Positions 26,508-28,967 of a stretch of DNA of 45,891 nucleotides are shown here, piece after piece. The notes below the pieces were generated by a model that made no database searches, was not told the DNA's origin, and was given only the letters and a program-made list of their open reading frames with translations. Origin of the DNA: Planctomycetota bacterium (GTDB taxonomy: Bacteria > Planctomycetota > Phycisphaerae > Phycisphaerales > SM1A02); the NCBI GenBank assembly GCA_016872835.1, contig VGYX01000016.1:1-45891 (forward strand), in the 5' to 3' direction. How positions within the stretch are numbered: position 1 is the first letter of the stretch; every line of letters starts with the position of its first letter. A program made the position numbers and the translations under genes.

Positions 26508-26709
26508 GGGCCGCGGCCAGCGCCGCCATGCCCACCAGCAGTTGCCCGCTCATCCGGAAGACCTCCGGCCAGTAGCGATCCAGCGAGTGCAGGCGAATGG
26601 CTTTCCACGTCACGCTCACTCCGATCACCATGGGCACCACCCACGCCCACCACCAGTGGATGCCTCCGGGCAGCGGATCGACCAGCGGAATCCAGGCGAG
26701 CAGGATCAT
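26461..26709 (-). CDS. Small membrane protein
   Basis: Protein of 82 residues with two or three hydrophobic segments (MILLAWIPLVDPLPGG, WAWVVPMVIGVSVTW and LLVGMAALAAALMLLVRVVL). No family is recognised. The ATG overlaps the stop of the upstream DUF6677-like gene by 4 nt. Its 3' end overlaps the convergent gene tail-to-tail by 47 nt, which is unusual but compatible with both frames being real. Confidence 0.6.
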   Translation of the reverse strand: MILLAWIPLVDPLPGGIHWWWAWVVPMVIGVSVTWKAIRLHSLDRYWPEVFRMSGQLLVGMAALAAALMLLVRVVLPLLPAD

Positions 26710-27155
26710 GCGCGCGGCCCCCGTGGCCCACGAAGGGCATCCAGCAGCGCCACCACGTTCATCAGTCCAGCCATGGCCGTGAACAGGATTCCCACGTCGT
26801 TCGCCACGCCAACCGACTTCAGCGAGCTCACCTGCACCATGTTTCCGTTGGGAAGCGTCATGGGCAGCAATTCGCCCACCTTTCCCGACTTCAGCAGATA
26901 GGCGTTCGCGGCATCAGCCAGAAAGGCCAACGGACCGACTCCGCCCTGCGCCAGGAACCACAGACCGTCCTCTCTTCGATCCACGCAATCCAGCCCACCG
27001 ACCAGCAGTCCTGTCAGGAAGAGACCAACGACTCCCAGCATGACCAGCCATCCTCGTCTGGAATCGCCATTTTTCAGGTGACCAAGACCCGGCCAGATCC
27101 ACCCAAGGGTGCCGGAGGCCAAGTGAAGGGGTCGCTCATCCTGATCTTGGCTCAT
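26706..27155 (-). CDS. DUF6677-like planctomycete membrane protein
   Basis: Protein of 149 residues with the pattern LGWIWPGLGHLKNGDSRRG, then a helix (WLVMLGVVGLFLTGLLVGGLD) and VDRREDGLWFLAQ. I associate this with the planctomycete family DUF6677 (TM2-like membrane proteins). A second helix (GILFTAMAGLMNVVALLDAL) ends the protein. The function is unknown. The ATG at 27155 begins the conserved part; an upstream in-frame start would add only eight residues. Confidence 0.65.
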   Translation of the reverse strand: MSQDQDERPLHLASGTLGWIWPGLGHLKNGDSRRGWLVMLGVVGLFLTGLLVGGLDCVDRREDGLWFLAQGGVGPLAFLADAANAYLLKSGKVGELLPMTLPNGNMVQVSSLKSVGVANDVGILFTAMAGLMNVVALLDALRGPRGPRA

Positions 27156-27242
27156 GTTTGTACGCGGGCGCGATCCCACCCGCTGTTAGAGTGTAATGGT
27201 GAAGCTCGCCGGATGAACCGGTCGCCCACGGAGACCTCCGAC

Positions 27243-27647
27243 ATGACCACCGACGCCAACCATCCGAAGAAGCAAGTCCCCTTGGGTCACGGGGAGGTCG
27301 TCGATCGACGTGTCGGCATCGACCGCCGAGCGTTGGCCGCTCCGTCGGCCACCAACCTTGAGCGCCGCCGTGGTCCCGGCCGACGACTGACCGACTTCGT
27401 GAAGAGCGCCGAGGAGGGCGAGATGAACAAGGAGCAGTTCCTGTTCCTGCTCGCCATCGAAGCCTTCAAGCGGGTGAACCACAAGACCTTCCCCACCTGG
27501 ACCGACGTGCTCGAGATCATCCGGAAGCTGGGCTACCGGAAGACCATGCGGTCGGAACTGCAGCTTGGCGCGCGCGCCAACGACTGGACGGAGAAGGCCG
27601 ACGCCCCCGCAGGCGTTCACAAGATGGCTGAAAAGCGCGAGGAGTGA
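27243..27647 (+). CDS. Small basic conserved protein of unknown function
   Basis: Soluble protein of 134 residues. The N-terminal half is rich in Arg (DRRVGIDRRAL, LERRRGPGRRL) and probably disordered. The C-terminal half is helical (MNKEQFLFLLAIEAFKRVN, TWTDVLEIIRKLGYRK) and looks like a compact DNA- or protein-binding domain. The ATG at 27243 has GGAG 9 nt upstream. A TAGAGT box at 27187-27192 could be its promoter, with a leader of about 45 nt. It is convergent with the ferredoxin gene. Confidence 0.6.
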   Translation: MTTDANHPKKQVPLGHGEVVDRRVGIDRRALAAPSATNLERRRGPGRRLTDFVKSAEEGEMNKEQFLFLLAIEAFKRVNHKTFPTWTDVLEIIRKLGYRKTMRSELQLGARANDWTEKADAPAGVHKMAEKREE

Positions 27648-27653
27648 GGCCTC

Positions 27654-27920
27654 TCAGGCCTTCTTCTTGTACCAGTCGGCGTTGATCTGGATGTACTTTT
27701 TCCACTCTTCCGGCAGGTCTTCGCCCGGAAAGATGGCCCGGACCGGGCACTCGTCCACGCACAGCCCGCAATCGATGCAGGTGTCAGGGTCGATGTAGAG
27801 CTGCGTGGCCTCGGCGAAGGTGCCTTCGCCCTTCGTCGGGTGGATGCAGTCGACGGGGCAGACCTCGACGCACGAGGCGTCCTTGGTTCCGATGCAAGGT
27901 TCAGCGATGACGTGGGCCAT
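27654..27920 (-). CDS. 7Fe-type ferredoxin
   Basis: Electron carrier of 88 residues. The first Cys set is C-x7-C-x3-C-x3-C (CIGTKDASCVEVCPVDC) and the second is C-x2-C-x2-C-x3-CP (CIDCGLCVDECP). The seven-residue spacing in the first set is the pattern of ferredoxins that hold one [3Fe-4S] and one [4Fe-4S] cluster. The acidic C-terminal tail and final KKK are ordinary. The redox partner is unknown. It lies downstream of the Lys-rich peptide gene on the same strand but is separated from it by a strong terminator. Confidence 0.92.
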   Translation of the reverse strand: MAHVIAEPCIGTKDASCVEVCPVDCIHPTKGEGTFAEATQLYIDPDTCIDCGLCVDECPVRAIFPGEDLPEEWKKYIQINADWYKKKA

Positions 27921-27978: not shown

Positions 27979-28019
27979 TAAAAACCATCGGAGCCGGCCA
28001 CTTGGGCCGGCTCCGATGG
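27979..28019 (-). terminator. Strong intrinsic terminator of the Lys-rich peptide gene
   Basis: A perfect 15-bp stem (27985-27999 with 28005-28019, loop of 5 nt) is followed on the minus strand by TTTTTA. It is the strongest terminator in the window and starts 24 nt after the peptide stop codon. Confidence 0.9.
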
Positions 28020-28043
28020 GACTGTTCGATACGACTGACGAAG

Positions 28044-28100
28044 TCAGCGGGACTTCTTCTTGGTCGCCTTCTTCTTCGCAGCCTTCTTCTTCTTGGCCAT
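28044..28100 (-). CDS. 18-residue Lys-rich peptide
   Basis: A very short frame encodes MAKKKKAAKKKATKKKSR, with 10 Lys and 1 Arg in 18 residues. It resembles the tails of histone H1-like and other bacterial nucleoid proteins. Three things support a real gene: an AGAGGAG ribosome site 8 nt upstream, the perfect terminator immediately downstream, and no other gene between 27920 and 28251. The leader contains an 8-bp hairpin (28140-28147 with 28161-28168). A role in binding DNA, RNA or polyphosphate would fit the charge but is inference. It could instead be a translated leader or the remnant of a longer basic protein. Confidence 0.6.
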   Translation of the reverse strand: MAKKKKAAKKKATKKKSR

Positions 28101-28250
28101 TGGATGGCTCCTCTGTACGTCACGCGGATGTCGGAGAGAGGAGTCGCTGCGTGACGGTACGCGACTCCGTCGGTACTTGTACCTTTATCGGCACGTCTTG
28201 TGAAGGGGCTGCACCAAAAAACTTTGCAAGTCGCCTCATCCACCCATTCC

Positions 28251-28967
28251 ATGACCCCGAACACCCCAACAGAGCGCACGCAGGTGGTGATCGTGGGTGC
28301 GCAAGGTCGCATGGGTCGTGCGTTGATCGAGGCGATCGAAGCGCATGGTTCATGTCTCGTCGCAGCACGCATCGATCAAGGTGACGCACTGCCGGACGCT
28401 GGCGACTTGGTGATCGACTTCTCGAGTGATGATGGTGCAAAAGTGGCCTTGGCAGCCTCAGAACGCCGTTCCGCGCCCCTCTTCGTGGGTACCACGGCCC
28501 TCTCCAACAGCACGATGGAGGCGTTGCGGTCGCGCGCGCGACAGGTGCCTGTGATGGTCGCCAGCAACGCTTCGCTGGGTGTGGCGGCGATGCATCGCAT
28601 GGTCGCTTTGGCGCTGCAGGCGCTCGGACCGGCTTGGAAGATTCGCCTGACGGAGACCCATCACACCAAAAAATTTGATGCACCCTCGGGCACCGCGATC
28701 GCGCTGGCCGAGACGGTTCGACGCGCTGGGGGCGACCTGCCGGTCGAGGCGATCCGGTCAATCCGTGAAGGTGACGTGGTGGGACATCACGTGCTTGAGC
28801 TGGTGGGACCAGGCGAAACACTCACGCTTTCTCATGAGGCGCACGATCGATCGCTCTTCGCGCGCGGTGCGCTCACGCTCGCGCTCTGGTTGCGCACTCA
28901 ACCTGCTGGCATGCACACGGTGCAGGCATGGCTCGATCAGCGCATTCGGGGCAGAATGCAGCCATGA
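28251..28967 (+). CDS. dapB: 4-hydroxy-tetrahydrodipicolinate reductase
   Basis: Enzyme of 238 residues in the lysine and diaminopimelate pathway, reducing the dihydrodipicolinate precursor with NAD(P)H. The Rossmann motif is VVIVGAQGRMGR, and the catalytic and substrate motif is ETHHTKKFDAPSGTA, with the His pair and Lys of the family. It is shorter than the E. coli enzyme (about 270) because the N-terminal domain is trimmed (DLVIDFSSDDGAKV follows early). I chose the ATG at 28251 because upstream starts precede the conserved strand. It overlaps the M16 gene by 4 nt. Confidence 0.93.
   Translation: MTPNTPTERTQVVIVGAQGRMGRALIEAIEAHGSCLVAARIDQGDALPDAGDLVIDFSSDDGAKVALAASERRSAPLFVGTTALSNSTMEALRSRARQVPVMVASNASLGVAAMHRMVALALQALGPAWKIRLTETHHTKKFDAPSGTAIALAETVRRAGGDLPVEAIRSIREGDVVGHHVLELVGPGETLTLSHEAHDRSLFARGALTLALWLRTQPAGMHTVQAWLDQRIRGRMQP
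28952..28957 (+). promoter_or_regulatory. -10-like box CAGAAT inside the dapB 3' end
   Basis: CAGAAT, then 6 nt, then ATG at 28964. It would allow separate leaderless expression of the M16-like gene, though coupling to dapB is equally possible. Confidence 0.3.

Follow-up and report, generated by a model that had tools for sequence, protein, structure and literature searches.

A lysine-rich mini-gene between dapB and a ferredoxin gene

The window (the whole 45,891-nt stretch of DNA analysed here) belongs to a genome of 2.39 Mb in 46 contigs (G000) and carries on its minus strand an 18-codon frame that runs from an ATG start to a TGA stop (28100-28044). Its product, MAKKKKAAKKKATKKKSR, contains 10 Lys and 1 Arg out of 18 residues arranged in about three K-runs. 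An earlier note, made from the sequence alone, had placed the frame exactly there and had likened the peptide to histone H1 tails, a likeness that its composition bears out. Among the ATG frames of 12-40 codons in the window, it is the sole one that reaches 50% Lys, and no frame of this kind arose in 20 first-order Markov windows. The predicted ribosome site is GAGGAG at 28113-28108 (minus); across the aligned genus sequences it takes the form (G)GGAGCC or one close to it. Farther upstream, a promoter-like element, TTCACA-17-TACAAG (28176..28204, minus), overlaps CCGATAA; it was recognised by eye, is conserved, and is absent from the consensus promoter scan of the window. The 15-mer CCGATAAAGGTACAA of this promoter-like region has a single occurrence in G000; at 3 mismatches there are 2 additional places, compared with 17 for the backward control. 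If transcription started near 28169, the leader would be ~70 nt long.

The frame is followed by an intrinsic terminator (28019-27985, minus) with a 15-pair stem, of which 12 pairs are G-C, and a TTTTT tail. As the earlier note had held, this is the strongest terminator of the window in terms of stem length: of 13 terminator-like sites recorded in the window (8 + 3 + 2), it has the most pairs, the remaining 12 having at most 9 pairs each. As a class, these sites are not commoner than in shuffles (8 vs 7.0, 3 vs 8.5 and 2 vs 4.1). The interval 27979-28168 contains no second recognised gene, again in line with that note; mechanical ORFs in other frames overlap it. The 200-nt stretch 28178-27979 folds at -81 kcal/mol compared with -60.1 (sd 4.3) for shuffles (z -4.9), a low energy to which the terminator hairpin contributes.

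Upstream, the divergent dapB gene (PF01113, PF05173; 28251..28967, plus) probably starts at the ATG at 28251, which was chosen by eye and is in frame with a listed GTG at 28200. Downstream lies a conserved 4Fe-4S ferredoxin gene (27654..27920, minus, starting at 27920), whose best named relatives bear mostly Phycisphaerae, Phycisphaerales or Planctomycetota in their titles. By eye, a candidate -10 element for ferredoxin is located 3' of the terminator, TACGAT in the window and TATCAT, TACAAT or TATAAT in relatives of the genus. A DUF6677 gene (26706-27179, minus) and an unnamed conserved gene (27186-27647, plus) flank ferredoxin and travel with it in the family.

The frame is conserved as a coding sequence within the genus

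A search of 41 genomes matched the frame and at least part of the leader in all 15 genomes of the window's genus; the frame is complete in 13 of them and cut by contig ends in two, which were excluded from the count of complete sequences. Across 15 aligned codons, with one extra Lys codon of G006 removed by hand, the variable sites numbered 1, 0 and 5 at codon positions 1, 2 and 3, so that five of six fall at third positions. Length differences within the genus are whole codons, and all complete frames are intact, with 18-21 residues. Furthermore, genus members with a complete sequence keep the ribosome site, the leader and the terminator together with the peptide, in support of the stand-alone mini-gene that the earlier note had proposed. 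In each of the 14 complete genus sequences, that of the window among them, the terminator stem keeps 14-15 pairs, and changes in one arm are matched in the other. That note had also pointed to relatives keeping the terminator without the frame as evidence against a gene; the 14 complete sequences keep both, and a partial exception is found outside this set in G083, where the frame is reduced to MAAKKKK. A simple scan for a hairpin of at least 7 pairs followed by a T-run was positive at 64 of 79 distinct loci and negative at 15. Given the genus-wide retention, the whole-codon length changes and the third-position bias, the sequence comparison identifies 28100-28044 (minus) as a real protein-coding gene.

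The 18-mer lies near the short end of a length series in a fixed gene slot

Ferredoxin, which matched at E 1e-20 in 89 of 101 genomes of the window's family, a group of Phycisphaerales-type Planctomycetota, served as the anchor for a survey of the gene slot. The survey comprised 89 ferredoxin loci from 88 genomes, G098 being counted with two; it left out a ferredoxin fragment at a contig start (G110) and weaker second matches in G043 and G055. A Lys-rich frame precedes ferredoxin at both loci of G098 (L103, L105). In the length, leader and model-match counts, a protein with an upstream Met was shortened to the first MA; in G094 and at the second locus of G098, the frame begins inside a contig-cut repeat.

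An open Lys-rich frame was found upstream of ferredoxin at 66 of the 89 loci, with lengths of 18-172 residues (median 50.5); 31 frames have at most 36 residues and 35 have more. They begin with MAKKK- or MAAKKK-type sequences, and the proteins are Lys/Arg/Ala/Thr repeats (K/R-A-T repeats). The order in the family is divergent dapB, Lys-rich gene and ferredoxin; dapB lies divergent beyond the Lys-rich gene at 47 of the 66 loci and was not detected in the stretch examined at 19. Another 17 loci carry a Lys-rich coding run to which no start could be assigned, in most cases on a contig ending there, and at one of these (G058) the gene is on the opposite strand. Six loci were flagged as having no Lys-rich frame. 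Three of them (G022, G080 and G106) offer just 217-242 nt of upstream sequence, which in two cases begins, by eye, within Lys codons; no Lys-rich frame lies within 1.5 kb upstream of ferredoxin in G018 and G054; and the sixth, G083, has a frame of 7 residues with the leader and a terminator-like hairpin kept. This locus (L112, G083:C6:35100-37500) could reflect either true shrinkage or a collapsed repeat; in the same genus, the frame of G047 encodes 30 residues and that of G123 encodes 27.

Since the same slot holds repeat proteins of 18-172 residues, the 18-mer stands near the short end of an H1-tail-like family. The mini-gene announced by the earlier note is real, and its picture as an isolated 18-mer gives way to that of a member of a repeat-protein family in a fixed slot. 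Lengths below 18 residues were found in G247 (17) and G083 (7). We considered that the frame could be the decaying remnant of a longer H1-like gene, still transcribed and being lost. Longer forms are indeed common (over 36 residues at 35 of 66 loci), G083 is down to 7 residues, and longer frames tend weakly to occur in larger genomes (Spearman 0.28, p 0.025, n=65, without correction for relatedness). Against this, no complete frame of the genus is broken: each has 18-21 residues and comes with a conserved ribosome site, leader and terminator. Short forms also recur across several genera, and together this makes decay an unlikely explanation.

In other families of the order, G027, G032 and G040 keep the Lys-rich gene and ferredoxin, and dapB was not detected there. 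Beyond the family, 16 of 80 named ferredoxin loci have a clear Lys-rich frame upstream, and the frames of 13-15 residues at L196 and L214 look chance-like. No Lys-rich frame was found in the 2 kb upstream of ferredoxin at L148, L160-L162, L166, L167, L169, L173-L176, L178, L181 and L182, whose records are titled Phycisphaerae, Phycisphaerales or Planctomycetota. The gene is missing from many ferredoxin loci of Planctomycetota outside the family, so the slot is a trait of the family and some relatives and not of the phylum. Lys-rich frames of 21-50 residues also occur in other families of the order at L043 (G033), L044 (G036) and L051 (G029), where no dapB or ferredoxin match was found in the stretches examined and where the upstream DNA shows, by eye, [CT]CGATA-like and CTCC elements. 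Three public MAG records (L153, L155 and L164), which bear the names Chitinophaga pinensis, Candidatus Kuenenia stuttgartiensis and Singulisphaera, carry the ferredoxin and the Lys-rich gene of this family and so seem to be misnamed.

The leader has the pairing pattern of a pseudoknot next to the ribosome site

The earlier note had described the leader as structured, and the structure supported by comparison is a pseudoknot of two helices. Helix S1 would pair GGAGTCGC (28168-28161, minus) with GCGACTCC (28147-28140), and helix S2 would pair CGTCACGC (28156-28149), located in the S1 loop, with GCGTGACG (28125-28118), 4 nt before the ribosome site. A near-invariant CTCCGAC (28136-28130) lies between the two helices, and CTCCGA or TCCGAC is found within the last 80 nt of 71 of 75 distinct leaders.

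The loop 7-mer G[TC][TC][AG]CGC together with a downstream 7-mer GCG[TC][AG][AG]C is present in 43 of the 75 leaders; S2 is fully Watson-Crick in 42 of these and contains wobbles in one, with five combinations in all. In the alignment of 41 distinct leaders, 287 of 287 S2 cells pair, compared with 12-41% for slid versions; because the pattern by which the 43 leaders were picked fixes four of the seven pairs, S2 is tested by three pairs only. Three of the seven pairs changed on both sides (reached by 7 of 500 shuffles), 11 cells carry two-sided changes (0 of 500), and the covariation score was 0.151 vs 0.081 in shuffles (0 of 500), while the count of further pair types was not above shuffles (125 of 500). 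For S1, the mean helix score was 17.9 vs 13.8 (sd 0.4) when arms were swapped between leaders (0 of 300), the helix picker having taken other helices in some rows (e.g. L011, L016, L068 and L071). Any upstream-downstream pairing in 71 leaders scored 18.6 vs 15.3 (sd 0.3; 0 of 300). Both the shuffle and the arm-swap controls ignore the relatedness of the leaders.

S1 encloses the loop 7-mer, which pairs with the sequence just before the ribosome site; the two helices therefore interleave, as in an H-type pseudoknot. As judged by comparison, the leader has the hallmarks of this class, namely a loop of helix 1 that pairs 3' of helix 1 and compensatory changes. The nested minimum-energy fold of the window's leader (-23.5) uses a different 5' helix without S1, indicating that a competing fold exists; S1 and S2 alone score -15.1 and -12.2. 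The 32 leaders without a GTTACGC-type S2 differ in what follows them: a protein of at most 36 residues stands behind 37 of the 43 S2 leaders vs 2 of these 32, the other 30 preceding proteins of more than 36 residues. Rfam gave no match for the leader at gathering thresholds and, at E up to 1, just a miRNA model (E 0.066) on the terminator stem.

Two other readings of the upstream elements were set aside. Pairing of CTCC with the GGAG of the ribosome site is not favoured because CTCCGAC is kept where the site is AGGAA (L071, L125). The -10 element of sigma-28-type promoters is GCCGATAA, and [CT]CGATA is common upstream of the gene in the window's family; we did not adopt this assignment because [CT]CGATA lies, by eye, upstream of a TTGACA-like promoter in other families (L042, L043, L050 and L051).

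A covariance model links the leader to Lys-rich frames

A covariance model (R1) was built from the 43 leaders with S2 only. It matched 41 of 201 genomes of the order, each at a single site and each a member of the window's family; under stricter filters, 20 further genomes of that family were listed without a match. In a set of 120 genomes of the class it matched three, again in the window's family only. After each of the 41 matches, an ATG opens a Lys-rich frame at ribosome-site distance; these frames have from 7 to at least 125 residues, and four run off the contig. Fourteen of the 41 matched genomes were not in the model, several being close kin of model members. G058, which the ferredoxin survey had missed, was found by R1 and has, by eye, a changed S2 (GCACGCGG/CCGCGTGC). 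These observations indicate that the leader and the Lys-rich frame belong together, and the R1-visible leader stands before the Lys-rich gene alone in the genomes searched.

These matches also bear on the possibility that the functional product is the RNA itself, that is, the pseudoknot and the terminator hairpin, with an incidental frame of nearly free length. The retention of leader and terminator while the frame spans 7 to 172 residues, and the presence of CTCCGA or TCCGAC in 71 of 75 leaders, agree with such a role. Yet an incidental frame sits poorly with the third-position bias and codon-sized indels, and with a Lys-rich frame at ribosome-site distance after 41 of 41 matches; we thus regard an RNA product as improbable.

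Comparison with known proteins and regulatory RNAs

Chlamydial Hc2 (HctB, PF07382) is built of Lys-rich repeats, with 165-237 aa and a length that varies by repeat number (PMC2848022). The slot proteins are likewise Lys-rich tandem repeats that vary in length (18-172 aa); in contrast to Hc2, 31 of 66 slot loci encode at most 36 residues. None of six relatives' peptides (21-74 aa) exceeded the curated cut-off of PF07382, NF038052 or NF038053, the best score being 17.1 bits for PF07382 vs a cut-off of 40; the scan covered these six peptides, the 18-mer being below its 20-residue limit. Across NCBIfam and Pfam nothing exceeded the cut-off for the six, and no library family names the protein. A PF07382 profile search of G000 gave no match at E 0.001. 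Another DNA match in G000, at C8:5971-5999, was rejected as a second Lys-rich gene because it sits in the frame of another protein, presumably a membrane pyrophosphatase. PF07382 matches elsewhere in the genome were found in 7 of 15 same-genus genomes and 11 of 25 genomes overall, two being over the cut-off. In G005, G006, G007, G013 and G015, a further Lys-rich stretch resembling PF07382 lies in a frame of about 280-300 residues.

The composition of the family also recalls the Lys/Ala-rich, disordered, H1-like C-terminal tails of AlgP and PhaF. AlgP is associated with polyphosphate granules, and fragments of its tail bind DNA (PMC9239181). AlgP has an N-terminal helical domain and KPAA repeats, whereas the slot proteins have no other domain and KPAA is not their repeat; an AlgP/PhaF-type N-terminal domain with a KPAA tail was not seen at the loci read. 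The leader resembles preQ1-type translational riboswitches, in which a pseudoknot by the ribosome site controls translation, in that its pseudoknot adjoins the ribosome site. Unlike these, it has no Rfam match and no known ligand, and it occurs at one site per genome, always before the Lys-rich gene. Titles and abstract openings of the papers listed in literature searches gave nothing on this gene, its leader or H1-like proteins in Phycisphaerae, and the main text of PMC6461901, on freshwater Planctomycetes, has no occurrence of lysine, histone, small protein or riboswitch.

Proposed function

We consider it probable that the locus is a stand-alone mini-gene for an H1-tail-like polycation, near the short end of its family, with translation set by a pseudoknot. 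The frame, its conservation, the gene slot, the terminator and the covarying pairings are read directly from sequences; promoter use, the level of translation, switching and the binding partner of the peptide are deduced from them. Transcription probably starts near 28169 from TTCACA-17-TACAAG and probably ends at the 15-pair terminator. In the mRNA, S1 (28168-28161/28147-28140) and S2 (28156-28149/28125-28118) would form an H-type pseudoknot that stops 4 nt short of the ribosome site, a position that suggests translational control. The folded pseudoknot would hinder initiation and the open one would allow it, so that it most likely sets the translation level. The product would be disordered; since it has no hydrophobic residue beyond Met and Ala, folding or membrane attack is unlikely. 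By analogy with H1-like tails, it may bind DNA, RNA or polyphosphate by charge.

That the frame is instead a Lys-codon leader peptide sensing lysine supply by attenuation, as in amino-acid operons, has very little likelihood: a Lys-codon run followed by a terminator does adjoin the lysine-pathway gene dapB, but dapB is divergent, the gene after the terminator is ferredoxin and not a same-direction amino-acid gene, ferredoxin seems by eye to have its own -10 after the terminator, orthologues reach 172 residues, and the ORFs lie downstream, not upstream, of the covarying structure.

The leader is a candidate new regulatory RNA. A more speculative version, which we hold to be rather doubtful, is that the pseudoknot is a cis-regulatory element not described before, restricted to a single gene in a single Planctomycete family, and that it senses the level of free polycation: the Lys-rich product (or polyamines or Mg2+) would stabilise the pseudoknot and shut translation, giving an autogenous loop around a minimal bacterial histone tail. 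That the product itself closes this loop is a guess.

The slot offers a natural length series from 7 to over 170 residues, in which the ribosome site and the slot stay constant and which lets one ask how much polycation is required for an effect on the nucleoid; Hc2 and AlgP, the H1-tail-like bacterial proteins compared here, are long repeats or tails attached to other domains. Automatic annotation would likely skip frames as short as 18 codons, and longer repeats are often at contig ends; the family is therefore probably under-reported. At L081, L088, L092, L094, L096, L101, L104, L108, L110 and other loci, the contig often stops within the Lys-rich repeat at a distance of a few hundred nt upstream of ferredoxin, which looks as though the repeat interrupts assembly.
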